Origin: a virus
Length of the DNA stretch: 64,000 nucleotides
Direction: 5' to 3' (one strand)
Virus record (IMG/VR): IMGVR_UViG_3300044568_002742
Coordinates: 1-64,000 of that record
Shown one piece after another: positions 13,383 to 26,043 of the stretch. Numbering within the stretch: the stretch's first letter is position 1; every line of letters begins with the position of its first letter. The notes under the pieces are model-generated. The model did no database searches, had not been told where the DNA came from, and saw nothing but the letters and a program-made list of their open reading frames with translations. Position numbers and translations under genes: made by a program.

Positions 13383-13408
13383 AGCCATTCACTTTTAGGA
13401 GCAATGAT

Positions 13409-13606: not shown

Positions 13607-13773
13607 TGATGGCAACTTATAAGATTACCCAAATGGTTGAAGAATTGTATTATATCGAGGCTGATTCAGAAGATGATGCCCTTGAAATATTATACGCTGG
13701 TGTTGATGAACCTACTCAATATGGTTCAATGAATATAACTGATATAACTTTATGTGGAGCAGATGATGAATGA
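13606..13773 (+). CDS. Small acidic early protein
   Basis: 55 aa (MMATYKITQMVEELYYIEADSEDDALEIL...). Start in a TAATG overlap. Its 3' end carries the GGAGCAG ribosome-binding site of the next gene and overlaps that gene by 11 bp. Confidence 0.68.
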   Translation: MMATYKITQMVEELYYIEADSEDDALEILYAGVDEPTQYGSMNITDITLCGADDE

Positions 13774-14032
13774 TATAGAATTAGTTAAAAGAATGGCACA
13801 AGACGCTAGTGTAATTATATATGATGGGATTGGCTATCAGGTATGTAATTGTGATTTTGATGATAGCAATTTACTTGACGATGATGAAGAAATGGGCATG
13901 ACTGTATTAGATGAAGAAACCCAAGATAGTATGTTCATCGCCTATAGTGAAGTTGATTTAGAACGTGATATGTTTTATAAGTTAGTAGTGATGGACGAGA
14001 ATGAGTATAAAGTAGTTGACACAGTAGAATAA
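13763..14032 (+). CDS. Acidic early protein
   Basis: 89 aa, not recognised. A short basic N terminus, then an acidic stretch (DFDDSNLLDDDEEMG). The start may be 13763 or 13766, both after GGAGCAG. Confidence 0.7.
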   Translation: MMNDIELVKRMAQDASVIIYDGIGYQVCNCDFDDSNLLDDDEEMGMTVLDEETQDSMFIAYSEVDLERDMFYKLVVMDENEYKVVDTVE

Positions 14033-14044
14033 TCCCAGTATAAT
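14016..14044 (+). promoter_or_regulatory. Sigma-70-type promoter inside a gene end
   Basis: TTGACA (14016-14021), 17 nt spacer, TATAAT (14039-14044), overlapping the last codons of 13763-14032. Confidence 0.75.
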
Positions 14045-14071
14045 AACCTGTAACTTAACTAGGAGCAGACA

Positions 14072-14374
14072 ATGAATGAACCAATAGGTGCAAATGTCAA
14101 AATCAAATGGTTGGATGAAACATTCCATCCAGAACATGAAGTTGAAACATATTGGGTACACTTCTCATTCAGTGAAGAACCAGACTTCTCTGAATGTACT
14201 GGGGAGGAAGTAGACCAACATGGAGTTCATGACTGGGATATATTCTATTATGTCGCTAATGAGAAAGAATTAGAAGACCTGATGAATGATGATCCGTATG
14301 ATGGTTATGTGATATTGGATTACAAATTAGTTTATAGCATTGAAGAAATGTTAATTAATAAAAGAAATTCTTGA
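14072..14374 (+). CDS. Acidic early protein
   Basis: 100 aa, not recognised. Asp/Glu-rich with EDLMNDDPYDGYVILDY. GGAGCAGACA leader. Confidence 0.72.
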   Translation: MNEPIGANVKIKWLDETFHPEHEVETYWVHFSFSEEPDFSECTGEEVDQHGVHDWDIFYYVANEKELEDLMNDDPYDGYVILDYKLVYSIEEMLINKRNS

Positions 14375-14398
14375 CAAATGTGTCTGGTATGTTATACT
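14371..14398 (+). promoter_or_regulatory. Sigma-70-type promoter with 11 bp inverted repeat
   Basis: TTGACA (14371-14376), 16 nt spacer, TATACT (14393-14398). GTGTCTGGTAT-GTT-ATACTAGACAC: compared with the 11350 promoter, both arms changed together. Confidence 0.88.
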
Positions 14399-14425
14399 AG
14401 ACACAACATCAACTAGGAGCAGAAC

Positions 14426-14656
14426 ATGAATACCGATATAGCAGATTTTGTAGATGTCCTTGCCAGTAATCTAGATTATAATGGCTCATTATCATTAGCC
14501 GAGCGGGATATGGCAGTAACCAAGTTATTACAACATTGGGCGAAACAGATTGATTATGATGACTTATTAGATTATTATATATCTGGTCAAGAAAATTACT
14601 TGACAGAGCTACCAGATAGTGAGATAATAGAAACCGTAAAGGAAGAACTCCTTTAA
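14426..14656 (+). CDS. Acidic early protein
   Basis: 76 aa, not recognised, helical and acidic. GGAGCAGAAC leader. It is followed by a structured gene-free region. Confidence 0.7.
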   Translation: MNTDIADFVDVLASNLDYNGSLSLAERDMAVTKLLQHWAKQIDYDDLLDYYISGQENYLTELPDSEIIETVKEELL

Positions 14657-14803
14657 CCGATTATTACTGTAAGGGACGATGCCTAAGAGGATGACCGTAT
14701 ATTTTGGGGTGGGTCAGCATCAATGAACCCCATTAGGGCAAGTCGCATTTTTGAATGGACACACTATATTTTTTTGGGTGTAGCCTTGCCAATATTAAGA
14801 TTA
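14657..14803 (+). ncRNA. Structured untranslated region, possible small RNA
   Basis: No ORF. GGGGT (14706-14710) pairs with ACCCC (14727-14731), and GGCAAG near 14737 can pair with CTTGCC near 14785. It runs into the terminator that follows, so it is either a long 3' UTR or a processed RNA. Confidence 0.4.
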
Positions 14804-14839
14804 GGATATAATAGAAACTACTATTATATCCTTTTTTTT
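14804..14839 (+). terminator. Rho-independent terminator
   Basis: GGATATAATAG, loop AAACTA, CTATTATATCC: a perfect 11 bp stem followed by eight T. Confidence 0.9.
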
Positions 14840-14853
14840 GTTTAAAATAAAGT

Positions 14854-14881
14854 TTGACAAACCTATTCAATATGTTATACT
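14854..14881 (+). promoter_or_regulatory. Sigma-70-type promoter
   Basis: TTGACA (14854-14859), 16 nt spacer, TATACT (14876-14881). Drives 14911-15204. Confidence 0.78.
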
Positions 14882-14910
14882 AATCACAACTTAAACGAGG
14901 AGCAAATCAA

Positions 14911-15204
14911 ATGAATGAATTAACTTATACTATCATCAATGGTCAATGGGACAAAATTCAAATGTCAAGTGGTCGTGGATCGGTACTGACTACCTATGAT
15001 AAACTGGTAGAATTATTTGGCGAACCTGAAATAACCAATTGCGGTAAGACTCAGGTAGAATGGGATATTGAATGGAGTGATGGCACAATATCGACTATCT
15101 ATGATTGGAAATGCTATGGTGAAGAACCAGAAGAAATAACCGAATGGAACATTGGTGGCTTTGATGGCAACTCATTATACTATGTTGAAGAACTGCTAAA
15201 ATAA
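14911..15204 (+). CDS. Conserved small phage protein
   Basis: 97 aa. TYDKLVELFGEPE...KTQVEWDIEWSDGTISTIYDWK...EWNIGG resembles a small family common in phages; role unknown. GGAGCAAATC leader. Confidence 0.75.
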   Translation: MNELTYTIINGQWDKIQMSSGRGSVLTTYDKLVELFGEPEITNCGKTQVEWDIEWSDGTISTIYDWKCYGEEPEEITEWNIGGFDGNSLYYVEELLK

Positions 15205-15206
15205 AT

Positions 15207-15234
15207 TTGACAAATGTGTCTGGTATGTTATACT
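15207..15234 (+). promoter_or_regulatory. Sigma-70-type promoter with inverted repeat
   Basis: TTGACA (15207-15212), 16 nt spacer, TATACT (15229-15234). GTCTGGTAT-GTT-ATACTAGAC. Confidence 0.82.
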
Positions 15235-15263
15235 AGACTGACTTTAACAAAGGAGCAAATAAA

Positions 15264-15563
15264 ATGGCAATAGATTACCGAGTAACAGTATTCATCCCAG
15301 ACGAAGTTCTACACCATTATTGGGAAGATGGATTAAAGACTGGATTGGAAATGCTATCATTTGAAGGCGACATAGAAGATGTTTATTGTGGTAACTGGGT
15401 AGTTGAGTTTGATGCGTACAATAAAGCCGTCAATGCGGAAATCGAACTGGAAGCATTAGTTGAACGATATACGTTATCATATAAACGATTGACTTCCGCG
15501 AAGGAAATGACCATTGCGGAGATTGAAGAAAAGTTAGGACATCCAATCAAGATAGTAAAATAA
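15264..15563 (+). CDS. Early protein
   Basis: 99 aa, not recognised; soluble, acidic N half and basic C half. GGAGCAAATA leader. Confidence 0.72.
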   Translation: MAIDYRVTVFIPDEVLHHYWEDGLKTGLEMLSFEGDIEDVYCGNWVVEFDAYNKAVNAEIELEALVERYTLSYKRLTSAKEMTIAEIEEKLGHPIKIVK

Positions 15564-15565
15564 AT

Positions 15566-15594
15566 TTGACAAGTGGTTATTATTCCATTATAAT
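15566..15594 (+). promoter_or_regulatory. Sigma-70-type promoter with perfect 11 bp inverted repeat
   Basis: TTGACA (15566-15571), 17 nt spacer, TATAAT (15589-15594). GTGGTTATTAT (15573-15583) pairs with ATAATAACCAC (15590-15600), loop TCCATT. Confidence 0.88.
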
Positions 15595-15622
15595 AACCAC
15601 AACATCAACCGAGGAGCAAATC

Positions 15623-15775
15623 ATGGAATTAACATATAGTACAACATTGTACTTTGAAGTACCAGAAGAATATACCCCAGATGAATATATAAGATTCTTG
15701 GAAAAATTCCCAAGAATGGATATGGTTAGTTTTGCAACTGATGTCGGTGATGGTGGATGGGGAGTAGAAGAATGA
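15623..15775 (+). CDS. Small acidic early protein
   Basis: 50 aa, not recognised, ending TDVGDGGWGVEE. GGAGCAAATC-ATG decides the start. Confidence 0.68.
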   Translation: MELTYSTTLYFEVPEEYTPDEYIRFLEKFPRMDMVSFATDVGDGGWGVEE

Positions 15776-15825
15776 ATACAATAGATTTAAAATTATCATT
15801 ATCAACAAAGGAGCAAAGATCATGA
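15772..15825 (+). CDS. 17-codon coupling ORF
   Basis: ATGA overlap with the preceding gene and ATGA overlap with the next. It encodes MNTIDLKLSLSTKEQRS across the leader of 15822-16016. It may only serve translational coupling, or be chance. Confidence 0.3.
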   Translation: MNTIDLKLSLSTKEQRS

Positions 15826-16016
15826 GTTGTTTTTTCGGTATCACTAAGGCGAAGAAAGAAGCATTCATTAAAGCATATATGAACACAACCGCGCGGGTAA
15901 GTGAAGAAGAATTGCGGGAGTTCTTTTATGACCACAATACAGTAGCAGAAGCAGATCATATTATGGACTGTTGGTTGCTATGGTGTGATGGATTTGAACA
16001 TAACGGGGTGGTATAA
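15822..16016 (+). CDS. Small early protein
   Basis: 64 aa, not recognised; contains CFFGITKAKKEAF and two Cys/Trp residues late. GGAGCAAAGATC leader. Confidence 0.7.
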   Translation: MSCFFGITKAKKEAFIKAYMNTTARVSEEELREFFYDHNTVAEADHIMDCWLLWCDGFEHNGVV

Positions 16017-16189
16017 TGAAAAAGATTAATTTAGAGATGAGTTTAGAACAGTTCTTATCATTAAAGGCATTGCTCTTATATGTATTGGATAACGAGCAGG
16101 ACAGTTATGATGAGTATGTAGAGGAATGTGGTGATATGGGTAACCATATCTACTCATATGCCTTATCGGTAGCAGAAGCCCTTAAATAA
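16016..16189 (+). CDS. Small acidic early protein
   Basis: 57 aa (MKKINLEMSLEQFLSLKALL...), helical, not recognised. TAATG overlap with the preceding gene. Confidence 0.68.
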   Translation: MKKINLEMSLEQFLSLKALLLYVLDNEQDSYDEYVEECGDMGNHIYSYALSVAEALK

Positions 16190-16203
16190 AATTGGAGTAC
16201 AAC

Positions 16204-16356
16204 ATGATTGACTTAACCAAGCTGGAACATCTAGTAGAAGAAATCACCGATATGTCAGCCGACCAACTTTGGGATTTGGCTAAGTTGTTAAACCGAGCCA
16301 GTCCTGTTAATGCCAATATATTAAAAGCAGACCTTGACTTTGTTGAATCAATGTAA
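16204..16356 (+). CDS. Small helical early protein
   Basis: 50 aa (MIDLTKLEHLVEEITDMSAD...), not recognised. GGAGTACAAC leader. Its last codons contain the next promoter. Confidence 0.68.
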   Translation: MIDLTKLEHLVEEITDMSADQLWDLAKLLNRASPVNANILKADLDFVESM

Positions 16357-16362
16357 TATAAT
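16334..16362 (+). promoter_or_regulatory. Sigma-70-type promoter inside a gene end
   Basis: TTGACT (16334-16339), 17 nt spacer, TATAAT (16357-16362); the -10 box abuts the stop codon of 16204-16356. Confidence 0.72.
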
Positions 16363-16392
16363 AATCACACATTAACACATTGGAGCAAGCAA

Positions 16393-16557
16393 ATGAACAT
16401 ATATGAAATAACATTATCCAATAGATTGAATGAAGATGAGTTTGTTCTTTCAATCGGTACTGCGGTAGATGAGGAAACAGCAATCAAAGAATGCTTAGAA
16501 ACATTTACCTTTCATGATATCGAATCTATCAATATCATTCCAGAAGAATTCTACTAG
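16393..16557 (+). CDS. Small early protein
   Basis: 54 aa (MNIYEITLSNRLNEDEFVLS...), not recognised. Its layout is similar to 13606-13773: a strand, then an acidic helix. GGAGCAAGCAA leader. Confidence 0.68.
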   Translation: MNIYEITLSNRLNEDEFVLSIGTAVDEETAIKECLETFTFHDIESINIIPEEFY

Positions 16558-16566
16558 GAGCAAGAC

Positions 16567-17187
16567 ATGGGATTAGATCAATATTTTTATGCCAGCAAGA
16601 CCTTATCGGCATTCAAGAAGAAAGAGAAGCTATATATTGATTATTTCAATACTGTAGACGAACCAGATATGGACACCGATGAGGGATTATTCGTATCTGA
16701 ATTTTGGGGCAATGGTGCGGTAATCAGTAAAGGCTTAGACGGATTGCCTACCTTAGATGGACAAGTCGGTACTATACGGATGGTTAAACGTATGGGTGAT
16801 ACCTATCAGGTAAGCACAGAAGCAATGTATTGGAGAAAATCCAATCAAGTTCATAATTGGTTTGTAGAACATCCACAAGGTGGCATTGATGATTGCGGGT
16901 ATCATCCAGTAGGTGTGAATCATTTGGTGGATTTGCAAGAACGCGTCACTCAGATATTAGATGGGTTGGTGATGCCAAGAGGTAATAAACCCAACTGGAT
17001 GGCACCATCAGTTAATGAATCAACTGCGAGGAAGTTATTACCTGCCACAAGTGGTTTCTTCTTTGGCTCTACGGATTATAACGAATGGTATTTTTATGAT
17101 TTACATGAAACCAAGAAGTTTTTACGAAAAGTATTGAAGCAGTCTACACGCAAGAATTGGTCGTTCATGTATCACAGTTCTTGGTAG
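16567..17187 (+). CDS. Conserved phage protein (MGLDQY family)
   Basis: 206 aa. It begins MGLDQYFYASK and carries EAMYWRKSNQVHNWFVEH, a His/Trp segment, and ATSGFFFGSTDYNEWYFYDL, the signature of a widespread phage family of unknown function. GGAGCAAGAC leader; follows 16393 directly. Confidence 0.8.
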   Translation: MGLDQYFYASKTLSAFKKKEKLYIDYFNTVDEPDMDTDEGLFVSEFWGNGAVISKGLDGLPTLDGQVGTIRMVKRMGDTYQVSTEAMYWRKSNQVHNWFVEHPQGGIDDCGYHPVGVNHLVDLQERVTQILDGLVMPRGNKPNWMAPSVNESTARKLLPATSGFFFGSTDYNEWYFYDLHETKKFLRKVLKQSTRKNWSFMYHSSW

Positions 17188-17195
17188 AGAGAGAG

Positions 17196-17224
17196 TTGAC
17201 ATAATCAATATGAGCCATTATAAT
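17196..17224 (+). promoter_or_regulatory. Sigma-70-type promoter with perfect 20 bp palindrome
   Basis: TTGACA (17196-17201), 17 nt spacer, TATAAT (17219-17224). TGAGCCATTA and TAATGGCTCA meet without a loop (17211-17230), centred on the -10. Confidence 0.88.
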
Positions 17225-17253
17225 GGCTCATCAACAAATAGGAGCAAAATCAC

Positions 17254-17325
17254 ATGATAGTAGCAATAACGGTATTATTTCTCGGTAGCGTCGTATTTGG
17301 TTATCTTTTAGCGAGGTGGTTATAA
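17254..17325 (+). CDS. Membrane micropeptide
   Basis: 23 aa, one membrane helix (AITVLFLGSVVFGYLL) ending ARWL. GCGAGGTGGTTATAATG encodes its end and also gives the ribosome-binding site for the next gene, the same trick as in the 1-3723 array. GGAGCAAAATC leader. Confidence 0.6.
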   Translation: MIVAITVLFLGSVVFGYLLARWL

Positions 17326-17495
17326 TGTATCAAGTTCATTACCATAATGGCATCATCTCATTTCATACAACCTTGGATAATGCAAAACTACTAGCACGCA
17401 AAGAACAAATAGATTACCAGATAATCGATACGGGGATAAATGAAATAATATGGGATATCAATGATGATATCTTGGAACATCTCGAAAGTACTTGA
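17325..17495 (+). CDS. Small early protein
   Basis: 56 aa (MYQVHYHNGIISFHTTLDNA...), not recognised. TAATG overlap with the preceding micropeptide. Confidence 0.68.
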   Translation: MYQVHYHNGIISFHTTLDNAKLLARKEQIDYQIIDTGINEIIWDINDDILEHLEST

Positions 17496-17661
17496 TTTAT
17501 ATAAAGATTAAATTAAAACGCGTTTAAACAGCATTATAATTACCACTACCCTTGGTGGTACCAAGGGTAAGGTATTTTAAGTGTTGAAAAAGTGAAAAAG
17601 TCTCTTATAAGCTATTGATTTATAAGAGGTGAAAACTAAGTTTTTTTCTGTAGAATAAAGC
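17496..17661 (+). ncRNA. Gene-free stretch with two strong hairpins
   Basis: TATAAT (17535-17540) is followed by TACCCTTGG-TGGTA-CCAAGGGTA (17547-17569) and then CTCTTATAA...TTATAAGAG (17602-17628), with T7 at 17641. It may be a small RNA or a terminator region; no ORF is seen. Confidence 0.4.
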
Positions 17662-17689
17662 TTGACAGGATGTTTTAATGTGTTATAAT
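17662..17689 (+). promoter_or_regulatory. Sigma-70-type promoter
   Basis: TTGACA (17662-17667), 16 nt spacer, TATAAT (17684-17689). Confidence 0.78.
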
Positions 17690-17717
17690 AACTCATCATC
17701 ACAACTAGGAGCAATAT

Positions 17718-17936
17718 ATGAATGACATTGAATTAAACGCCATCAAGATATCGACAAGATTTCACTTCAGTGAAGTGGAAGATGATGAGTTGGAAATCTA
17801 TGGAGCATTATCTAATTCGGATACCGATGATGAGTTCCCCTATGTGGTATGGCGACCATTTGAAGATATGGCTAATGATCAATTATGGGATAGTGTTGAG
17901 GCATTGAAGGACGATATCATGAGGACATTTAAATGA
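17718..17936 (+). CDS. Acidic early protein
   Basis: 72 aa, not recognised (EVEDDELEIYGALSNSDTDDEF). GGAGCAATAT leader; ATGA overlap with the next gene. Confidence 0.7.
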   Translation: MNDIELNAIKISTRFHFSEVEDDELEIYGALSNSDTDDEFPYVVWRPFEDMANDQLWDSVEALKDDIMRTFK

Positions 17937-18166
17937 AGACATTTGATAAAACACTTAATATTGATGCCAGTAAATTTACAACTTATGCAGTAAAGAGAAA
18001 GCTAGAAGATATCTTATTGGATATCTATGGTGATAACTTACATAAAGAACGATATGTGGAACAATCTTTGTCCAATGACCCACAGGTATTATTTCTATAT
18101 TATTCTGATATGAAACATGTTGCAACATGGAATAGTAATAAACGAGGTGGTTGGATATTTTGTTGA
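17933..18166 (+). CDS. Small early protein
   Basis: 77 aa, not recognised. Ends KRGGWIFC; its TGA stop is inside the TTGACA of the next promoter. Confidence 0.7.
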   Translation: MKTFDKTLNIDASKFTTYAVKRKLEDILLDIYGDNLHKERYVEQSLSNDPQVLFLYYSDMKHVATWNSNKRGGWIFC

Positions 18167-18190
18167 CAGGATGTTTTAATGTGTTATAAT
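18163..18190 (+). promoter_or_regulatory. Sigma-70-type promoter overlapping a stop codon
   Basis: TTGACA (18163-18168), 16 nt spacer identical to the 17662 promoter, TATAAT (18185-18190). Confidence 0.8.
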
Positions 18191-18218
18191 AGTCCTAACT
18201 TAAACGAAGGAGCATAAC

Positions 18219-18446
18219 ATGTTGAAACCAGAGATAAGACGGTATAGTGAAATTGCACAAACATTTATCACTAATGATAGCAAACGACATAACGGTAATG
18301 GAGAGATATGCTATCCATATGCCTTTGGTTATAGCTTATCAGAGATGGCTTGGACTCTTGAAAAATTATCATTGAATAAAAGACAAATAAAAATATTAAA
18401 AGAGTTGACAACAAAGCTAGAAGCTGATATAATAGATATAACTTAA
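18219..18446 (+). CDS. Small early protein
   Basis: 75 aa, not recognised; C-terminal helix KRQIKILKELTTKLEADI. GGAGCATAAC leader. Its last 14 codons contain the next promoter. Confidence 0.7.
   Translation: MLKPEIRRYSEIAQTFITNDSKRHNGNGEICYPYAFGYSLSEMAWTLEKLSLNKRQIKILKELTTKLEADIIDIT
18405..18433 (+). promoter_or_regulatory. Sigma-70-type promoter inside a gene
   Basis: TTGACA (18405-18410), 17 nt spacer, TATAAT (18428-18433), all within the coding region of 18219-18446. Confidence 0.75.
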
Positions 18447-18459
18447 CTGGGAGCAGATC

Positions 18460-18630
18460 ATGAACATAGAAGCAAAACGACTAGCAGTAATTGAGGATGC
18501 CTTTGATACTTGTTTGAATGATAGCCATTATTTGATGTTCATCTTAAAAGATCACTATGGTAATTTATCAGATGAAGATGTTGAAAAATATTATGAAGAT
18601 GCGTTTGGTGATAAGCCAGATTGCTTGTAG
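18460..18630 (+). CDS. Small acidic early protein
   Basis: 56 aa (MNIEAKRLAVIEDAFDTCLN...), helical, not recognised. GGGAGCAGATC leader. Confidence 0.68.
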   Translation: MNIEAKRLAVIEDAFDTCLNDSHYLMFILKDHYGNLSDEDVEKYYEDAFGDKPDCL

Positions 18631-18640
18631 GAAATAAAAC

Positions 18641-18669
18641 TTGACAATGTGGTTATTACTCGATATAAT
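18641..18669 (+). promoter_or_regulatory. Sigma-70-type promoter with 10 bp inverted repeat
   Basis: TTGACA (18641-18646), 17 nt spacer, TATAAT (18664-18669). GTGGTTATTA pairs with TAATAACCAC. Confidence 0.85.
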
Positions 18670-18699
18670 AACCACAACATAAATTAACTGGAGCAGAGA

Positions 18700-19488
18700 A
18701 TGAATTTACTAGAAAGTGATGAACAAATTATGGAACGTCTTAGAGAACGATTTGAAATTCTCGAGGATATGACCAAAGCATGTAAGGCAGGCAAGGTACG
18801 GGCATTATTAGTTAGTGGTGCGCCTGGGGTAGGTAAGAGTTTCGGTGTAGAGAAAGTTCTAAGTGGACATGATGTATTCGCCACTATAGCACAAGACAAA
18901 TCACTTAAGAAATATGAAGTAGTTAAAGGTGCCATTACCGCACTGGGATTGTATGCCAAGTTATATGAATATAAAGGTGATAAGAACATATTGGTATTTG
19001 ATGATTGTGATAACTTGTTCTATGATGAATTATCATTGAACTTATTGAAAGCGGCATTGGATACAAGCGAGAAGCGTACATTAAATTGGAATGCAGAAAG
19101 TTATAAATTGAGAGATGAAGGCATTCCTAGTTCATTTGAATTCAAAGGCGGAGTGGTATTCATCACCAATGTAGATTTTGAACATATCCGTAGTAAGAAA
19201 TTGCGCGACCATTTAGCCGCATTATCTTCACGATGTCATTACTTGGATTTGACAATTCATAGTGAACGTGATAAGATTTTACGAATTAAACAGATCGTCG
19301 CTGATGGGATGTTAAATAAACATCAAATAACAGAAGAAGATAAAATTGATGTAGTGAACTTCATTACAGAAAATAAACAACACCTGAGAGAGTTGTCATT
19401 ACGTACAGTTATAAAATGTGCTGACTTGTGTGCTAGTTTCCCAGATAAATGGAAACGTGTCGCAGAAATGACATTAATGAAAAAGTAA
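18700..19488 (+). CDS. AAA+ ATPase of viral origin
   Basis: 262 aa. Walker A GAPGVGKS (about residues 40-47), Walker B ILVFDDCD, a sensor-1-like VVFITN with Asn, and later Arg residues (SSRCHYLDL) fit a small AAA+ ATPase. Related phage proteins exist, but the substrate is not known. It carries no DNA-binding domain that I can see. The anti-RBS RNA lies directly downstream, perhaps on the same transcript. GGAGCAGAGA leader. Confidence 0.82.
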   Translation: MNLLESDEQIMERLRERFEILEDMTKACKAGKVRALLVSGAPGVGKSFGVEKVLSGHDVFATIAQDKSLKKYEVVKGAITALGLYAKLYEYKGDKNILVFDDCDNLFYDELSLNLLKAALDTSEKRTLNWNAESYKLRDEGIPSSFEFKGGVVFITNVDFEHIRSKKLRDHLAALSSRCHYLDLTIHSERDKILRIKQIVADGMLNKHQITEEDKIDVVNFITENKQHLRELSLRTVIKCADLCASFPDKWKRVAEMTLMKK

Positions 19489-19489
19489 A

Positions 19490-19680
19490 ACCCCCCCCCA
19501 GAGGCGCAAGCCTCAATAATAGATAAGTGAGTAGGATTGCTCCCTGAAAACTTATCCAATAAAGTATTGAATAGGAAGGATTGCTCCCCTGATAATTCAT
19601 TACTCCTGAGGACATTGTCCTCATTAACAAGCCCTAATATCGACGGTTGCTCCCCTAGATATCAGGGCTTTTTTTTGTTT
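19490..19680 (+). ncRNA. Multi-hairpin RNA with three anti-RBS loops
   Basis: No ORF. Hairpins in order: GAGGC-GCAA-GCCTC (19501-19514); GATAAGT/ACTTATC (19522-19556); TGAAT/ATTCA (19568-19599); GAGGAC-ATT-GTCCTC (about 19608-19622); AAGCCCT...AGGGCTT with T8 (terminator). The second, third and last each present TTGCTCC (19537-19543, 19581-19587, 19647-19653) between the stem arms. TTGCTCC is the exact complement of GGAGCAA, the ribosome-binding site of most early genes. Inference: a trans-acting translational repressor RNA, made from its own promoter or processed from the AAA+ transcript. Confidence 0.65.
19630..19677 (+). terminator. Rho-independent terminator of the anti-RBS RNA
   Basis: AAGCCCTAATATC pairs with GATATCAGGGCTT around a loop holding GGTTGCTCCCC, followed by eight T. 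Confidence 0.88.
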
Positions 19681-19686
19681 AGGCTA

Positions 19687-19714
19687 TTGACAAAGTAATC
19701 CAATCAAGTATAAT
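19687..19714 (+). promoter_or_regulatory. Sigma-70-type promoter
   Basis: TTGACA (19687-19692), 16 nt spacer, TATAAT (19709-19714). Confidence 0.78.
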
Positions 19715-19746
19715 AGACACATCATCAACACCTTGGAGCAAATACC

Positions 19747-20421
19747 ATGACAATAGTTAAAGCAAAGTTAGTCCTCGACATTACCTATGATACCACAGAA
19801 TTACAGGAAGATGGTGCGGATTTAGTTAAAGGACATTTAGAAGCATTGATGGATACTATATCTGGCGATGGCGATTTATCAGGTTATAATGATATGACAG
19901 TTGAGGAATGGTCGGTAAAGGTTGCCACTCATGAAATCAAAACCCGTATCACCTATGATGAATTTGAAGAAAAGTATCAACCGATTAAGAATCATTTAGA
20001 TGATAACGCATCCTATGATGGGGTTATGTATGAAACCTTTGGTGATGAAGTCCAATATATTTTATCACTAGCTAATGACGAACATCATAAAGAAAGAGTA
20101 TGGACAGTCATTGGTGATTGTAATGCCACAGTGGTAGTATCGGGTTATCATTTGGTCAATAGACTTGGTTATATTATCACCAGTAAGCCATTAGAGCAAG
20201 ACTACATGGAGGTATATGACCCAGACTTAATCAAAGCAGTAGGCGATGAAGTATATTGGGAAGATTGCGACAATGATGAATCTTCTGGTTATTACACCAT
20301 AGCGAAAATTAAAACACCAAGTGGTAAATTGACTGGTACTAGCGATGACGATGATACCATCATTCTATTAACTAATGAAGATGGTGCTGAAACCGAAGTA
20401 TGCTATTACGAAATATCTTAA
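19747..20421 (+). CDS. Acidic early protein
   Basis: 224 aa, not recognised; acidic, beta-rich, with EVYWEDCDNDESSGYYTIAKI near the C terminus. The leader GGAGCAAATACC is a match for the anti-RBS RNA. Confidence 0.75.
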   Translation: MTIVKAKLVLDITYDTTELQEDGADLVKGHLEALMDTISGDGDLSGYNDMTVEEWSVKVATHEIKTRITYDEFEEKYQPIKNHLDDNASYDGVMYETFGDEVQYILSLANDEHHKERVWTVIGDCNATVVVSGYHLVNRLGYIITSKPLEQDYMEVYDPDLIKAVGDEVYWEDCDNDESSGYYTIAKIKTPSGKLTGTSDDDDTIILLTNEDGAETEVCYYEIS

Positions 20422-20452
20422 CAATGCTAGCTGTATCATAGGCGTATAATGC

Positions 20453-20481
20453 TTGACATGCTGGGTAGTATCATGTATACT
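20453..20481 (+). promoter_or_regulatory. Sigma-70-type promoter with perfect 11 bp inverted repeat
   Basis: TTGACA (20453-20458), 17 nt spacer, TATACT (20476-20481). CTGGGTAGTAT (20461-20471) pairs with ATACTACCCAG (20477-20487), loop CATGT. A GCTAGCTGT element lies at 20426-20434. Confidence 0.88.
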
Positions 20482-20507
20482 ACCCAGAACAAATGAAGGA
20501 AAAGACA

Positions 20508-20669
20508 ATGCAGGAATATGACGTAACATTAAGAGAGTATCACGAGGGTAGATGGTTGGATGAAATTGTATTTGAATGTTCAGCCGATGACCACGCACAT
20601 GCTCAAGAACAAGCAGAGAATGCCTACCCAGATTGTATAGTGATGAGAGTAGAATTATATGAACAGTAA
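20508..20669 (+). CDS. Small acidic early protein
   Basis: 53 aa (MQEYDVTLREYHEGRWLDEI...), not recognised. AAGGAAAAGACA leader, different from the GGAGCA type. Overlaps the next gene. Confidence 0.68.
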   Translation: MQEYDVTLREYHEGRWLDEIVFECSADDHAHAQEQAENAYPDCIVMRVELYEQ

Positions 20670-20835
20670 CGGACATTATATCAGCACTCATGCGAGGGCT
20701 ATTGCCCCGATGAATGAAATAAAACATGAAACAGATGTAATGATATACACGATCATAATTGCAATCTTTATATCAATCATAATCAGCTGTGTGAATGATA
20801 TCAGTAATTCAATAGAAAAGCTATGGAAAAATTAG
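20659..20835 (+). CDS. Small membrane protein
   Basis: 58 aa with one strong membrane segment (MIYTIIIAIFISIIISC) flanked by a soluble N terminus. It overlaps both neighbours, so translation is probably coupled. Confidence 0.62.
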   Translation: MNSNGHYISTHARAIAPMNEIKHETDVMIYTIIIAIFISIIISCVNDISNSIEKLWKN

Positions 20836-21368
20836 AAAGAGATACCCCCGAGCTATTAATCACCATAGATAATTTTTTATCCAAGAGTGATAACAAAATA
20901 ATAACTGATGCCTTTTTAGCACAGAGTGGATTAAGGTGGACTGATAATGATATCAATAATGTCAATAAAGAAAAAGATTTGGTTACATCTAAAATTTTAA
21001 ATGAAGTTAATAAGCATTTTAGTTTAGAGAACATGGTAGGATATGAAGGCTGGGCTAGATGGAATAATAGTATTCCGGATTGGCATTATGATGTAGATGA
21101 ACATGTGTGGTTTCATGACAAAATAATGAAAACACCTATATGTAGTATTGTCTACTATGGTGTGATTAAAGATTTAGTTGGTGGTGAATTCGTTTCAGAA
21201 ACACATAGCATAAAACCTAAAGAAAATATGTTATTGATATTTGCACCAAAAATATACCATAAGGTAAATCAATATACTGGTGAACGTATGGGTATTGCCA
21301 TTAACCCATGGGCATTCAAACCCGCTGATTACGTTATACAACCCAGCAGAACCAGAGCTATTTTTTAA
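20823..21368 (+). CDS. 2OG-Fe(II) oxygenase
   Basis: 181 aa. DWHYDVDEHVW supplies the HxD metal motif; the distal His is in APKIYHKV and the 2OG-binding Arg in GERMGIAINPW. Prolyl-hydroxylase-like double-stranded beta-helix fold by motif. The substrate is unknown. One of three such enzymes in the window. Confidence 0.82.
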   Translation: MEKLERDTPELLITIDNFLSKSDNKIITDAFLAQSGLRWTDNDINNVNKEKDLVTSKILNEVNKHFSLENMVGYEGWARWNNSIPDWHYDVDEHVWFHDKIMKTPICSIVYYGVIKDLVGGEFVSETHSIKPKENMLLIFAPKIYHKVNQYTGERMGIAINPWAFKPADYVIQPSRTRAIF

Positions 21369-21369
21369 C

Positions 21370-21398
21370 TTGACTTACTGAAGCAGACATGACATAAT
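21370..21398 (+). promoter_or_regulatory. Sigma-70-type promoter with inverted repeat
   Basis: TTGACT (21370-21375), 17 nt spacer, CATAAT (21393-21398). AGACAT pairs with ATGTCT across the -10. A GCTAGCTGTATATAT element follows at 21415. Confidence 0.65.
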
Positions 21399-21441
21399 GT
21401 CTGACAACACACTTGCTAGCTGTATATATGGGAGGGGAAGA

Positions 21442-21702
21442 ATGAAATCATGTCCAATGTTGGAAAAAGCCTATCAGGCAGAATATTACAAGAATAATAT
21501 CGAGAAGATTAAAGAACAACGTAGACAATATTACCAGAATAACAAAGCTGCATTTGCTGCCAGAGGGAGGGCATCACGCGCTGCCAACCCAGAACTAACC
21601 AAACTGGTAGATAGATTGATTTATGAAAGAACACGCGAGGATAAGATTGCCAGATCAAAAGCACGTTATTGGAAATTGAAGAAAGAAAGAGAAGAAGCAT
21701 AA
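21442..21702 (+). CDS. Basic coiled-coil-like protein
   Basis: 86 aa, Lys/Arg/Gln-rich (YYKNNIEKIKEQRRQYYQNN...KARYWKLKKEREEA). It resembles the repeat region of the HNH proteins at 4367-6018 without the HNH core, so it could be a remnant or a nucleic-acid-binding protein. The start follows GGAGGGGAAGA. Confidence 0.7.
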   Translation: MKSCPMLEKAYQAEYYKNNIEKIKEQRRQYYQNNKAAFAARGRASRAANPELTKLVDRLIYERTREDKIARSKARYWKLKKEREEA

Positions 21703-21866
21703 TGTATATTTTATTAATAGCACTATATAGTGGTGAGGTACTTCACACCTATCACGATACCTCCCAGGAATGTGAACGGGCATTATACCAGGCGATTGAT
21801 GAGGGCAGGAGAAAAAAGATAGCGGATATTAAATGTTTTGATGCCAAAACTTACTATCAGGATTGA
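21702..21866 (+). CDS. Small early protein
   Basis: 54 aa (MYILLIALYSGEVLHTYHDT...), TAATG-overlap start. The N terminus is hydrophobic but short. Not recognised. Confidence 0.68.
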   Translation: MYILLIALYSGEVLHTYHDTSQECERALYQAIDEGRRKKIADIKCFDAKTYYQD

Positions 21867-21868
21867 CT

Positions 21869-22123
21869 ATGATACGCGCAGGTTCCCAAATGAAATGGCA
21901 CTTAGCAGAAACCCCACCACCATTAGAGATTGAAGAATTCAATCGAATGGAATCAATACCAGTATTGGCATACTTGGGCAATAGCGTAGGTGCTGTAATG
22001 ACAGTGGTTAAGTATAGCAGATATACCGACGAGGAAGAAGGATGTTGGATTGATAATGGAAGCGAGGCATGGGATGTATCGGGTGTTATAACACATTGGC
22101 AATTTTTACCACCGACTCCTTGA
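21869..22123 (+). CDS. DUF551-like protein
   Basis: 84 aa. GCWIDNGSEAWDVSGVITHWQFLPPTP matches the DUF551 C-terminal pattern (Trp, then THW.PLP.P), common in prophages; function unknown. The start is taken 2 nt after the preceding stop. Confidence 0.78.
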   Translation: MIRAGSQMKWHLAETPPPLEIEEFNRMESIPVLAYLGNSVGAVMTVVKYSRYTDEEEGCWIDNGSEAWDVSGVITHWQFLPPTP

Positions 22124-22147
22124 CATCTATGACTATTGTGTTATACT
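22120..22147 (+). promoter_or_regulatory. Sigma-70-type promoter overlapping a stop codon
   Basis: TTGACA (22120-22125), 16 nt spacer, TATACT (22142-22147). Confidence 0.77.
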
Positions 22148-22177
22148 AGACACAACTTAACACCAACGGAGCAAATC

Positions 22178-22411
22178 ATGGAATCACCAACTATCAAATA
22201 CCCAGCAAATGGCACGGCTTATAAATTACTCAATGGTGTGTTGATGTTCGCACCATTAGATAATGATAATGTCATCATTGAGGCATTTGGGGAAGAAGAT
22301 TGGGGCGAGGTTGACTTTGACCGATTATCTACCGTGGATAGCCTATATCCCAAACAAGCCTTATTTGTTCTCAAAACCACTATGGAGATGAATGATTATT
22401 TGTTGAAATAA
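22178..22411 (+). CDS. Acidic early protein
   Basis: 77 aa, not recognised (EAFGEEDWGEVDFDRL). GGAGCAAATC leader decides the start. Confidence 0.72.
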   Translation: MESPTIKYPANGTAYKLLNGVLMFAPLDNDNVIIEAFGEEDWGEVDFDRLSTVDSLYPKQALFVLKTTMEMNDYLLK

Positions 22412-22415
22412 GTGC

Positions 22416-22443
22416 TTGACTTAGTCCACGGATGGACTATAAT
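22416..22443 (+). promoter_or_regulatory. Sigma-70-type promoter, hairpin spacer with CGGA loop
   Basis: TTGACT (22416-22421), 16 nt spacer, TATAAT (22438-22443). TAGTCCA-CGGA-TGGACTA pairs perfectly. Confidence 0.85.
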
Positions 22444-22476
22444 AGACACAACATCAACACCAACGGAGCAAACATC

Positions 22477-22668
22477 ATGATATTATCTACACCAGAACAA
22501 ATCAACAAATTCCAATTACTAACTTTGAAGTCAGCATTAAAGTTAGAAGTTTTGGGAATGGCAAGACGAGGAAAATCAGCCAATACAATGGCTTGCCAAT
22601 TACTAGGATTACCAAAGGGAACAAAAAAAGAAATAACCCTAGCAAAGTTAATTGAATATATCGGATAA
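22477..22668 (+). CDS. Small basic early protein
   Basis: 63 aa, Lys-rich, probably helical (KLEVLGMARRGKSANTMACQLLGLPKGTKKE). The spacing suggests a small helix-turn-helix, which I cannot confirm. Confidence 0.7.
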   Translation: MILSTPEQINKFQLLTLKSALKLEVLGMARRGKSANTMACQLLGLPKGTKKEITLAKLIEYIG

Positions 22669-22674
22669 AAGGTA

Positions 22675-22703
22675 TTGACAAGGGCAAGGATGCCCTGTAT
22701 AAT
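22675..22703 (+). promoter_or_regulatory. Sigma-70-type promoter, hairpin spacer with AGGA loop
   Basis: TTGACA (22675-22680), 17 nt spacer, TATAAT (22698-22703). AGGGCA-AGGA-TGCCCT pairs perfectly. Drives repeat cassette 2. Confidence 0.85.
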
Positions 22704-22710
22704 TACATCA

Positions 22711-22800
22711 TCAAATCACAGGGAAGCAATGGCAGGAAGCCATGTCGGCAGTCGATGCGTATCCAGTAGTTTCAAAGGTAGGTCGTCTTTAAAAAATAAT
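22711..22800 (+). ncRNA. Repeat cassette 2 (small RNA or micropeptide)
   Basis: Hairpin ATGGC-AGGAA-GCCAT (22729-22743), then GCA-GTCGA-TGC, then CCAGTAGTTTCAAAGGTAGG. Two nested frames exist: 26 codons from 22729 and MSAVDAYPVVSKVGRL from 22742. Confidence 0.55.
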
Positions 22801-22811
22801 AAAAAATAAAG

Positions 22812-22839
22812 TTGACAAGTAGTAATTACCTGTTATAAT
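22812..22839 (+). promoter_or_regulatory. Sigma-70-type promoter
   Basis: TTGACA (22812-22817), 16 nt spacer, TATAAT (22834-22839). The same spacer type recurs at 26044 and 26910, each right after a cassette. Confidence 0.8.
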
Positions 22840-22870
22840 AATCACAACATCAACACCAACGGAGCAAATC

Positions 22871-23086
22871 ATGTTAGATTTAGTAAACGCAGTAAGACGT
22901 CATGCAATGGCAAATTATGACGTAGATGGCTGGGACTATTTGGTAGAGTGCTATGACGATGGCGACATCATTGAAATTATATCAGATGCTGAAGCAACAA
23001 CCGTGCCAGAAGCAATAAAGGCAGTTCATAAAGAAGTAAAATTCCAAGATGATTATCGAAAAGAAATTCAATCAACCGAGTTTTAA
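22871..23086 (+). CDS. Conserved small phage protein
   Basis: 71 aa. GWDYLVECYDDGDIIEII followed by an Ala/Glu helix and FQDDYRKEI resembles a small family seen in many phages; function unknown. Confidence 0.73.
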   Translation: MLDLVNAVRRHAMANYDVDGWDYLVECYDDGDIIEIISDAEATTVPEAIKAVHKEVKFQDDYRKEIQSTEF

Positions 23087-23090
23087 TTAC

Positions 23091-23118
23091 TTGACATAAC
23101 ACAGGGACGTGTTATAAT
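23091..23118 (+). promoter_or_regulatory. Sigma-70-type promoter, hairpin spacer
   Basis: TTGACA (23091-23096), 16 nt spacer, TATAAT (23113-23118). TAACAC-AGGGAC-GTGTTA. Confidence 0.85.
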
Positions 23119-23149
23119 AATCACAACATCAACACCAACGGAGCAAATC

Positions 23150-23404
23150 ATGGCTTATCTAGCTAAAGTTCAATCAAGTATTTCTGGTATCCCTTGCTTA
23201 ATAGGGGTAATGACATACGCCAATGTAAAACCTTGGAAGGGCTCAGCTCATTCTTGCCCATCAGACCTTGATTATTATGGTTACTGTGAGATGGAATATG
23301 ACGTTTTAGACCGTAAAGGTTATATGGCAAATTGGTTATCCAAAAAAATTACCGATTATGATATAGAGCGAATCGAGGAAGCCGTACATAATCATTTTAA
23401 TTAA
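23150..23404 (+). CDS. Early protein
   Basis: 84 aa, not recognised; contains HSCPSDLDYYGYCEMEYDVLDRKG, reminiscent of a small phage family. GGAGCAAATC leader. Confidence 0.7.
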   Translation: MAYLAKVQSSISGIPCLIGVMTYANVKPWKGSAHSCPSDLDYYGYCEMEYDVLDRKGYMANWLSKKITDYDIERIEEAVHNHFN

Positions 23405-23408
23405 CCTA

Positions 23409-23437
23409 TTGACAAGGGCAACGGATTGCCCTATAAT
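23409..23437 (+). promoter_or_regulatory. Sigma-70-type promoter, hairpin spacer with CGGA loop
   Basis: TTGACA (23409-23414), 17 nt spacer, TATAAT (23432-23437). AGGGCAA-CGGA-TTGCCCT is a perfect 7 bp stem. Confidence 0.87.
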
Positions 23438-23465
23438 ATCAGCTTACCAACTAGGAGCAACCAAA

Positions 23466-23627
23466 ATGAAAGATTTTATCGCATTCTACAAAGAAAAACA
23501 AATCGTAGTTCAAGCCAATTCCTCATATGAGGCACAAGAAACGGCTGCAAAGCTATTCAGGGCAAAGAAGTCCTATGAGGTATCTGTATTCTTAGCTGAT
23601 AAAGCCGTCAATACCGCAAGTATATAA
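23466..23627 (+). CDS. Small basic early protein
   Basis: 53 aa (MKDFIAFYKEKQIVVQANSSYEAQ...). The pattern resembles small phage proteins whose Ala/Lys helix follows YEAQE. GGAGCAACC leader. Confidence 0.7.
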   Translation: MKDFIAFYKEKQIVVQANSSYEAQETAAKLFRAKKSYEVSVFLADKAVNTASI

Positions 23628-23634
23628 AATAAAC

Positions 23635-23662
23635 TTGACAATGCACATGGACGTGTTATACT
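23635..23662 (+). promoter_or_regulatory. Sigma-70-type promoter, ATGGAC loop class
   Basis: TTGACA (23635-23640), 16 nt spacer with CAC-ATGGAC-GTG, TATACT (23657-23662). Drives repeat cassette 3. Confidence 0.8.
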
Positions 23663-23669
23663 AGACACA

Positions 23670-23755
23670 TCAAATCAGGAAAGACATGCTAGGATGGCAT
23701 GACGTCGTAACAACGAGAGTCCAGCAATTTCAAAGGTAGCTTGTCTTTTAAAAAA
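23670..23755 (+). ncRNA. Repeat cassette 3 (divergent copy)
   Basis: Hairpin CATGC...GCATG (23685-23701) with AGGAT in the loop, then TCGT-AACA-ACGA, then CCAGCAATTTCAAAGGTAGC. The peptide frame of the other copies is interrupted (in-frame TGA), which favours an RNA product. Confidence 0.5.
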
Positions 23756-23769
23756 TAAAAAAAATAAAG

Positions 23770-23797
23770 TTGACAAAGTATTTAATTCAAGTATAAT
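23770..23797 (+). promoter_or_regulatory. Sigma-70-type promoter
   Basis: TTGACA (23770-23775), 16 nt spacer, TATAAT (23792-23797). Confidence 0.78.
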
Positions 23798-23823
23798 AAC
23801 ATCATACCAACTAGGAGCAAATC

Positions 23824-23988
23824 ATGAAAAAGAAATTCTTTGTACATTATACCGATCTTATGTGTGATCAAGCATGCATTGCTGAAGTTTATGCGTATGA
23901 TATCGAAGACGTAATGGAAGACTTCGACTACTCAGCTATACAGGTTGATTATATTAATACCGAAGCCGAGGAACAAGAAGAAAAATAA
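23824..23988 (+). CDS. Small acidic early protein
   Basis: 54 aa (MKKKFFVHYTDLMCDQACIAEV...), acidic tail EAEEQEEK. Not recognised. GGAGCAAATC leader. Confidence 0.7.
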   Translation: MKKKFFVHYTDLMCDQACIAEVYAYDIEDVMEDFDYSAIQVDYINTEAEEQEEK

Positions 23989-23990
23989 AA

Positions 23991-24019
23991 TTGACAAGTG
24001 GTTATTATTCCATTATAAT
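23991..24019 (+). promoter_or_regulatory. Sigma-70-type promoter with inverted repeat
   Basis: TTGACA (23991-23996), 17 nt spacer, TATAAT (24014-24019). GTGGTTATTAT pairs with ATAATAATCAC through one wobble, loop TCCATT. Confidence 0.85.
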
Positions 24020-24051
24020 AATCACAACATCAACACTTTGGAGCAAATCGT

Positions 24052-24252
24052 ATGACTAGATACAAACAGAATTGGTTTGAAACCTTGAATTCCGCATTAG
24101 AATCTGAAGGTCTGGTAGACTTATGGCCTCTTGGTACCAATGTATCATACGGGGAAAATGTCCGCTTTACGACCGAGTGTGGCAAGCACATCTCAGTATA
24201 TCGCGAAAATGATGGCCGATACGAAAGGCCAATCCACTATAAGGTAAAATAA
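24052..24252 (+). CDS. Small early protein
   Basis: 66 aa, not recognised; ends YERPIHYKVK. GGAGCAAATCGT leader. Confidence 0.7.
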   Translation: MTRYKQNWFETLNSALESEGLVDLWPLGTNVSYGENVRFTTECGKHISVYRENDGRYERPIHYKVK

Positions 24253-24254
24253 AC

Positions 24255-24282
24255 TTGACAATGCACATGGACGTGCTATAAT
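24255..24282 (+). promoter_or_regulatory. Sigma-70-type promoter, ATGGAC loop class
   Basis: TTGACA (24255-24260), 16 nt spacer with GCAC-ATGGAC-GTGC, TATAAT (24277-24282). Confidence 0.85.
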
Positions 24283-24313
24283 ATAATCTCTTTCAAAGCA
24301 ATCGGAGCAAACC

Positions 24314-24508
24314 ATGTTACAAGCAATCTACCCAACTAAGAAAGCGTTAAAAGAATCAATCGGCAAACAATTAAATTACCGTGAAACATCTATGTTCGGC
24401 TTAGAGTTTACACCAAATGGTAAATTCTGCGTAGCTGATGGAAGCCAAGCTAGAAAATGGTTTGCTGAAGTATGGATGGAAAATGGATTAATCGCTAAAG
24501 TAAAATAA
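24314..24508 (+). CDS. Small basic early protein
   Basis: 64 aa with FTPNGKFCVADGSQARKWFAEVWMENGLIAKVK, a strand-helix pattern found in several small phage proteins. GGAGCAAACC leader. Confidence 0.7.
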   Translation: MLQAIYPTKKALKESIGKQLNYRETSMFGLEFTPNGKFCVADGSQARKWFAEVWMENGLIAKVK

Positions 24509-24510
24509 AC

Positions 24511-24538
24511 TTGACATAGCACATGGACGTGCTATAAT
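24511..24538 (+). promoter_or_regulatory. Sigma-70-type promoter, ATGGAC loop class
   Basis: TTGACA (24511-24516), 16 nt spacer, TATAAT (24533-24538). TAGCAC-ATGGAC-GTGCTA, 6 bp. Confidence 0.87.
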
Positions 24539-24567
24539 GGTACATCATCAAAACTTTGGAGCAAACC

Positions 24568-24654
24568 ATGACAGTTATGCAAATGAACACCATAATACAT
24601 CTTGTTGGATTGGCGATAATCGCAATCGCAATCATAGTACATAAATTCTGCTAG
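24568..24654 (+). CDS. Membrane micropeptide
   Basis: 28 aa, one hydrophobic helix (IIHLVGLAIIAIAIIV), GGAGCAAACC leader. Its stop overlaps the AGGAGG of the next gene. Confidence 0.58.
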   Translation: MTVMQMNTIIHLVGLAIIAIAIIVHKFC

Positions 24655-24664
24655 GAGGTAATAT

Positions 24665-24856
24665 ATGATGGATGACGAGGAATATCTCAACGCTGGCGGA
24701 AATATCTGCCCATTTTGTAACAGTATAGAAATTCAAGAAGTTGGTAGCACCAACATCGAAGATGGTGTAGGCTGGCAGTTAATTGAATGTCTGGATTGCG
24801 ATAAAGAATGGATCGACACCTATGCCTTAACTGGTTTTGTATTACCCCACTGCTAG
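24665..24856 (+). CDS. Zinc-ribbon small protein
   Basis: 63 aa with CPFC and CLDC about 30 residues apart, the same layout as 7413-7625. Probably a zinc ribbon. TAGGAGG leader; start at 24665 or 24668. Confidence 0.73.
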   Translation: MMDDEEYLNAGGNICPFCNSIEIQEVGSTNIEDGVGWQLIECLDCDKEWIDTYALTGFVLPHC

Positions 24857-24870
24857 GAGATAATAAGAAC

Positions 24871-25098
24871 ATGGATACAAAAAAAGAAGAGGTTAGAGTA
24901 TTACTTTACCCTGTTGATGACTATGACCGTGAACAGGCGGAAGACATGGAAAACAAGGCATACACTATGGAAGAACTCAAAAGGGTATTGCCTGAAGATG
25001 TTATTAGTTATTCATTGGCGGACTTTATGAATGAGTGTAATGACCAAGAAATTGAATTAGAAGGTTATTGGTTAAGCTATATTAGGGTAGAACTATGA
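24871..25098 (+). CDS. Acidic early protein
   Basis: 75 aa, not recognised; resembles small phage proteins with YTMEELKRVL...YSLADFMNECND. AGGAGATAATAAGAAC leader decides the start. Confidence 0.7.
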   Translation: MDTKKEEVRVLLYPVDDYDREQAEDMENKAYTMEELKRVLPEDVISYSLADFMNECNDQEIELEGYWLSYIRVEL

Positions 25099-25120
25099 AT
25101 GCACACTGCTAGGAGATAAT

Positions 25121-25216
25121 ATGCCAACATTAGAAGATCGATATAATAGCTATTGCCATTTTGCTGAACAAATGGGCTGGTATGTTAAAACATTCGACGA
25201 ATGGCTAGACAGCTAA
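25121..25216 (+). CDS. Micropeptide
   Basis: 31 aa (MPTLEDRYNSYCHFAEQMGW...), AGGAGATAAT leader as for its upstream neighbours, so probably in the same operon. Not recognised. Confidence 0.58.
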   Translation: MPTLEDRYNSYCHFAEQMGWYVKTFDEWLDS

Positions 25217-25221
25217 AAAGA

Positions 25222-25249
25222 TTGACAAGTGGTTATTAGCTGGTATAAT
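25222..25249 (+). promoter_or_regulatory. Sigma-70-type promoter
   Basis: TTGACA (25222-25227), 16 nt spacer, TATAAT (25244-25249). Confidence 0.77.
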
Positions 25250-25280
25250 GACACATCATCAACATCAACGGAGCAAACAA

Positions 25281-25475
25281 ATGAAATTAACACCAGAGCA
25301 GGAATTATTTTTCGGCACAGAATTAGTAAGTCTATTGAACTTAAAGGAAAAGAATGGATTGTATAAAACTGACTTTGGTGTAAAGACAGCCAAATCATTG
25401 GGAGCAATGATTGAAAGTTTATATCACGCTCATATAGCAGACAATAAAGAAACCCATATTAATTCACAATTCTAG
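25281..25475 (+). CDS. Small early protein
   Basis: 64 aa, helical, not recognised. GGAGCAAACAA leader decides the start. Confidence 0.7.
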   Translation: MKLTPEQELFFGTELVSLLNLKEKNGLYKTDFGVKTAKSLGAMIESLYHAHIADNKETHINSQF

Positions 25476-25503
25476 TTGACATAGTACAAGGACGTGCTAT
25501 AAT
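25476..25503 (+). promoter_or_regulatory. Sigma-70-type promoter
   Basis: TTGACA (25476-25481), 16 nt spacer with TAGTAC-AAGGAC-GTGCTA (one wobble), TATAAT (25498-25503). Confidence 0.82.
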
Positions 25504-25532
25504 AACTCATCATCAACGAAAGGGGAAAAGCA

Positions 25533-25712
25533 ATGACTTATTATGACGTATGTTTTTGGGGCGGAAATTACTACACCAGAGAAGTAAGACCACATTCTAC
25601 CACAGTCTATATGGATACTGTAATATCATCACACGATGACCCCGACGAAGCTCAATTAGAAGCAGATCGCCTTCAAGCAGAATTTGAAAACGACCCAGCA
25701 AATTGGGAGTAA
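25533..25712 (+). CDS. Small acidic early protein
   Basis: 59 aa (MTYYDVCFWGGNYYTREVRP...), ending NDPANWE. GGGGAAAAGCA leader. The DNA encoding its end is repeated downstream of the next gene. Confidence 0.7.
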   Translation: MTYYDVCFWGGNYYTREVRPHSTTVYMDTVISSHDDPDEAQLEADRLQAEFENDPANWE

Positions 25713-25902: not shown

Positions 25903-25909
25903 AATAAAT

Positions 25910-25937: not shown

Positions 25938-25940
25938 GTC

Positions 25941-26030: not shown

Positions 26031-26043
26031 TAAAAAATAAATG

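Follow-up and report, generated by a model that had tools for sequence, protein, structure and literature searches.

A candidate 3' UTR repressor of a phage early regulon, with hairpin loops complementary to a shared leader tag

Directly downstream of an AAA+ ATPase gene in a viral genome fragment lies an RNA element whose hairpin loops are complementary to the ribosome-binding-site tag of dozens of early genes. The preferred reading, to which we assign a probability of roughly 0.75, is that this element is an autogenous anti-ribosome-binding-site 3' UTR that has taken over a regulon and represses the translation of early genes. The structure, the complementarity and the co-variation of loops with leaders are supported by sequence comparison; expression, repression as opposed to activation, and timing are what we infer from them. 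Somewhat less certain, but still fairly probable, is that its own leader tag spread to dozens of the early genes and thereby made the autogenous hairpin the chief repressor of a regulon. It would then be the RNA equivalent of T4 RegA, its loop and tag co-evolving as a private code with different versions in different phage lineages.

The window, meaning the whole stretch of DNA that was analysed, comprises 64,000 nt of a 71,067-base virus record. The nearest relatives of its terminase are those of two jumbo phages, PA5oct and Phosso, and sizes of up to 345-383 kb occur among related records; the group consists of uncultured, probably giant bacterial viruses. The minus strand at 31229-31855, bordering the early block, encodes a protein with similarity to kinases of the T7 gp0.7 type (phrog_15752), a family that inhibits host transcription and has RNase III and RNase E among its substrates.

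Three plus-strand copies of the motif TTGCTCC, starting at 19537, 19581 and 19647, each fall in a predicted hairpin loop of the RNA element (Table 1), and according to the fold prediction one or two C of each copy could close its loop. For positions 19489-19680 the predicted folding energy is -57 kcal/mol (z = -4.2), which no shuffle equals. An earlier, sequence-only reading of this DNA had described these loops, a strong terminator at the end of the RNA and GGAGCAA as the common early leader. Positions and predicted folds agree with that description, the third hairpin being followed by eight T, and the leader counts given below bear out the last point. The same reading had noticed TTGCTCC nowhere else on the plus strand of this block, which holds for the early block but not for the rest of the window, where four additional plus-strand copies lie, every one past 34 kb. 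Counting both strands of the window, TTGCTCC is observed 42 times against 5.5 expected. Rfam searches gave no family for the RNA element at gathering threshold; what they returned were tRNAs and weak hits to families unrelated to it. Nine consecutive C (19491-19499) lie directly 3' of the ATPase stop codon.

Table 1. Positions of the ATPase gene, the RNA element, the promoters and the proposed target leaders in the window
Feature	Position	Strand	Basis or score
Early block, 44 GGAGCA leaders (32 of them GGAGCAA), proposed targets	8471..29960	+	
Consensus sigma-70-type promoter TTGACA-17-TATAAT before the ATPase	18641..18669	+	12/12 matches
ATPase leader GGAGCAG; against the loops, 6 Watson-Crick pairs and one G-U	18690..18696	+	Leader listing
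AAA+ ATPase gene, PHROG_1250 (T4 NrdC.10 family), 262 aa	18700..19488	+	E 4e-85
Hairpin without TTGCTCC motif	19501..19514	+	Fold prediction
Hairpin 1, loop TTGCTCC 19537-19543	19522..19556	+	-10.3 kcal/mol, z -3.5
Hairpin 2, loop TTGCTCC 19581-19587	19563..19604	+	-9.1 kcal/mol, z -1.8; weakest of the three
Second hairpin without TTGCTCC motif	19607..19623	+	Fold prediction
Hairpin 3, loop TTGCTCC 19647-19653, then eight T; doubles as terminator	19629..19676	+	-16.6 kcal/mol, z -3.9
Consensus promoter for the tagged gene that follows (19747-20421), separating that gene from the RNA	19687..19714	+	Perfect match

Every one of the 44 GGAGC leaders listed across 8-31 kb reads GGAGCA and lies about 4-9 nt ahead of an ATG. 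GGAGCAA with an ATG no more than 10 nt downstream occurs 34 times in the window versus 1.4 by chance. Leader counts, here and in the relatives, are based on mechanical ORF calls. The tag is found at none of the 35 minus-strand ORF starts examined, which belong mostly to the late block. Many of the tags at 8471-18690 read GGAGCAG or GGAGCAT, and past 19.7 kb all read GGAGCAA; from this difference between upstream and downstream tags, a graded pairing strength across the early block is possible.

Judging from the placement of promoters in related loci, the RNA element most likely belongs to the ATPase mRNA as its 3' UTR. A promoter with at least 10/12 matches is located upstream of the ATPase in 82 of 122 loci, and a promoter-like site within 250 nt upstream of the RNA in 1 of 122, a count that leaves an sRNA with its own promoter unsupported. 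In the window, the promoter at 18641 is the probable driver of the ATPase mRNA together with the RNA element. The transcript probably starts there and not near 19490, after the ATPase gene, where the sequence-only reading had let the RNA begin. The 3' UTR may act in place or, after processing or release, as an sRNA.

Relatives were gathered by searching IMG/VR with the ATPase, which yielded more than 300 loci. The hairpins are found immediately 3' of the ATPase in most close relatives and within about 0.9 kb in the others. The strongest evidence against chance is co-variation, seen in some 146 related loci, where the loop and the leader tag vary jointly: TTCGCTCC occurs with GGAGCGAA, GCCCTC with GAGGGC and, in the window, TTGCTCC with GGAGCAA. 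Counted over related and hence non-independent loci, the leaders are GGAGCGA (595), GGAGCAA (61) and GAGGGCA (2) at the 114 distinct loci with TCGCTCC loops, and GAGGGCA (140), GGAGCAA (14) and GGAGCGA (2) at the 32 loci with GCCCTC loops. The window, which is the sole genome found with its loop type, has 30 GGAGCAA, 0 GGAGCGA and 0 GAGGGCA when counted like the relatives. A CUCC:GGAG core is expected from any anti-Shine-Dalgarno loop, so the specific signal lies only in the 3-4 extra bases. When leaders are aligned on the Shine-Dalgarno core only, the bases after the core are conserved as the loop complement in the RNA-bearing phages (0.57-0.95); in the relatives without the loops their conservation is only 0.38-0.44 and they are A-rich. 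The latter relatives serve as an internal control, and ribosome binding therefore does not explain the bases that follow the core.

The hairpins themselves vary in a way that preserves their form. Stems of 7 bp around the motif are formed by 87% of copies with their own flanks versus 35-36% with a flank from another locus. Stem sequences differ among loci yet pair inside each, with all four Watson-Crick pair types at nearly every position, and the predicted unpaired probability is 0.83-0.88 for the motif versus 0.44-0.46 for the whole region. Each RNA has 2-5 hairpin loops where the tag is widespread and a single one where it is not, and the tagged leaders form a block surrounding the RNA. Given these comparisons, base pairing between loops and leaders is very likely. 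The sequence-only reading had proposed such pairing and had named relatives as the place to look for constant loops on changing stems; in these relatives a change in the loops goes with a change in the leaders, and the loop-leader match is kept while the stems vary and still pair.

Viral contigs were scanned for three TTGCTCC copies, and among the matches listed none has the ATPase by tblastn; DNA searches of cultured phages gave no match. Locus L039 was considered as an extra leader type (ACACTAGG) and was rejected and not counted; it carries one ordinary A-type loop.

In 100 of 140 loci the tag in the ATPase's own leader is intact. In most relatives this leader is most likely itself a target, which would place self-regulation at the core of the system. 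Many ATPase relatives without the three main tags have a downstream hairpin loop that complements that ATPase's own ribosome-binding site. Own-leader/loop pairs of this kind in distant relatives are GGAGCTA/TAGCTCC, GAGTGAGA/TCTCACTC, GGAGCCAAC/GTTGGCTCC and GGAGGTT/AACCTCC, and the own-leader sequences matched by a single hairpin include GGAGCTA, GAGTGAGA and GGAGCCAA. Most such distant loci have a single start-codon tag, that of the ATPase, and a single copy of its complement, shortly 3' of the ATPase.

When each ATPase leader is tabulated against the anti-motif downstream of it, the table is close to diagonal for six types (81/88, 27/28, 4/5, 8/8, 14/14 and 1/1), counts that overstate the agreement because the groups were chosen after the match was seen; in its 'other' row, 35 of 76 ATPase leaders of other types are unmatched. 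An unpicked test on 55 distinct leader cores, dominated by two large types, finds the own-core complement in 42% of loci versus 6% for a swapped core. The loop types require 12 changes on an ATPase tree that is a quick build with long branches flagged, which suggests that the loop-leader match has been maintained through several sequence changes. In PA5oct, the nearest cultured phage, an 8-nt match of the 3' UTR to the ATPase leader lies inside a stem, and a match of 8 nt arises with about 9% of shuffled leaders. The T4-like phages (L211, L212) and RcSimone-Hastad have a coding gene directly after the ATPase and no such hairpins.

In the proposed mechanism, the early ATPase mRNA would carry a 3' UTR with three hairpins, the last of them the terminator, whose loops expose UUGCUCC. 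These loops would pair with a 6-8-nt tag, composed of the Shine-Dalgarno core and the following bases, in the ATPase leader and in about 44 early leaders. The pairing would hide the ribosome-binding site and lower the translation of tagged genes as the RNA accumulates, putting the ATPase under negative feedback and damping the early genes in a timed manner. The predicted energy of loop:leader pairing is -12.4 to -14.2 kcal/mol versus -6.3 to -8.4 for the leader with the 16S tail; because the pairing would cover the Shine-Dalgarno sequence and is predicted to be the stronger of the two, repression of the ATPase and all tagged genes is predicted. For the window loop, the predicted energy with A-type leaders (-11.1) is nearly equal to that with its own leaders (-11.4). 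A few targets would exceed the RNA in number unless the RNA is abundant. Distant relatives would have kept a simpler form, a single hairpin directed against the ATPase's own ribosome-binding site only, and the likely history is that self-repression came first, after which the tag spread through the early genes and the hairpins multiplied.

Other explanations share parts of this evidence. The 3' UTR could repress the ATPase alone, the tag elsewhere belonging to promoter-leader cassettes that were copied without regulatory meaning. Several relatives do have the tag solely at the ATPase, and runs of early leaders have flanking sequence in common, as copying would produce. However, across clades and hundreds of leaders it is the tag, not the remaining leader, that follows the loop, and the larger number of loops where the tag is widespread also speaks against this explanation, which we consider unlikely. 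An artefact in which the motif arose from inverted leader cassettes would account for its being the reverse complement of a repeated leader, but the flanks make locus-specific stems unrelated to the leader cassettes, and the idea was rejected on the stem test with own and swapped flanks. Hairpins that bind a protein are also disfavoured, since a protein reading one motif would prefer the same sense in both RNAs. With at least six tag sequences matching their own loops, chance or artefact of any of these kinds is barely credible.

Two alternatives accept the pairing and change its consequence. By covering the GGAG of early mRNAs, the RNA could protect or activate them, either shielding them from a nuclease or storing them; T4 RegB, which acts at GGAG in early leaders (PMC3014915), is an example of the kind of nuclease concerned. 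The covered sequence is, however, the Shine-Dalgarno itself, 4-9 nt from the ATG, so initiation should be blocked, and the RegB family has no match in eight records, in a search run without a working positive control. Protection or activation is quite improbable. The RNA could also be the target, with tagged mRNAs binding the 3' UTR and altering the fate of the ATPase mRNA as a reverse sponge. That the RNA belongs to the ATPase transcript and that the tagged mRNAs are numerous would suit such an arrangement, but the loops match the Shine-Dalgarno region and no other leader parts, and multiplied loops fit a regulator of many, making the reverse sponge very unlikely.

Several elements of the preferred reading, repression by an anti-ribosome-binding-site 3' UTR, have known counterparts, the closest being NfeR1, icaR and, in function, T4 RegA. 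The rhizobial sRNA NfeR1 (alpha-r14) has three hairpins with identical anti-Shine-Dalgarno loops; its stems differ, its loops are redundant, and pairing at the ribosome-binding site blocks translation of its targets (PMC10746234). The phage RNA likewise has several identical anti-Shine-Dalgarno loops on differing stems. NfeR1, however, is an sRNA of the host that has a promoter to itself and carries the generic motif CCUCCUCCC, which is absent from the phage RNA (loops TTGCTCC, TTCGCTCC or GCCCTC), whereas the phage RNA is apparently a 3' UTR whose loops have extra bases matching a dedicated, co-evolving tag of dozens of phage genes. The sequence-only reading had suggested that a multi-loop RNA able to block dozens of early mRNAs would be a new kind of phage early-shutoff switch; RNAs with several identical anti-Shine-Dalgarno loops on differing stems already have a precedent in bacteria.

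In the icaR mRNA of Staphylococcus aureus, UCCCCUG in the 3' UTR pairs with the mRNA's own Shine-Dalgarno region and lowers translation, and RNase III cuts the resulting duplex, in a case of self-regulation only (PMC3868564). The single-hairpin relatives follow the same logic of a 3' UTR motif that complements the ribosome-binding site of its own mRNA; unlike in icaR, the phage pairing is shorter and within hairpin loops, and in some lineages the tag has spread to a regulon. T4 RegA controls some 30 early mRNAs at the regions where their translation is initiated (PMC3014915). The phage RNA resembles it in being complementary to many early ribosome-binding sites, a relation preserved despite sequence change, although RegA and RegB are proteins. 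The RegA family, like RegB, had no match in eight records, again in a search with no working positive control. Phage sRNAs such as PreS, VpdS, sar and c4 pair with mRNAs, some at translation initiation sites (PMC12197685), but each of those described there has one or a few targets, and none aims at a leader of dozens of phage genes. Multi-loop anti-Shine-Dalgarno architecture, pairing of a 3' UTR with its own Shine-Dalgarno and a RegA-like role are each known. A search of open-access papers gave no description of a single phage RNA that combines all three with a tag that spreads and co-evolves.

Early shutoff in large phages is understood chiefly through proteins; if the preferred reading is true, an RNA does that work here, and the sequence-readable code of tag and loop would permit regulon prediction in uncultured phages. 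Self-regulating and regulon forms both exist among the relatives, which makes the transition between them directly testable, and the matched loop/leader pairs would be ready orthogonal translational switches for study.

Mixed or differing tags were seen at loci L082, L340, L249 and L452. The last of these, on a contig of a Flavobacteriaceae MAG, has GCCCTC-type loops and AGAGGAGCAC leaders, a match that needs one bulged A, and its tag is perhaps in transition. Nine loci (L401, L404, L405, L407, L411, L412, L417, L435 and L441) share, 3' of the ATPase, one and the same loop of about 27 nt, CTCCTCTGTCTGCGTCACTCTCACTC. One part of this loop matches the ATPase's own leader GAGTGAGA, and in several loci the TGTCTGC within it matches the ATPase codons after the ATG (ATGCAGACA), giving a two-part match to one start region.
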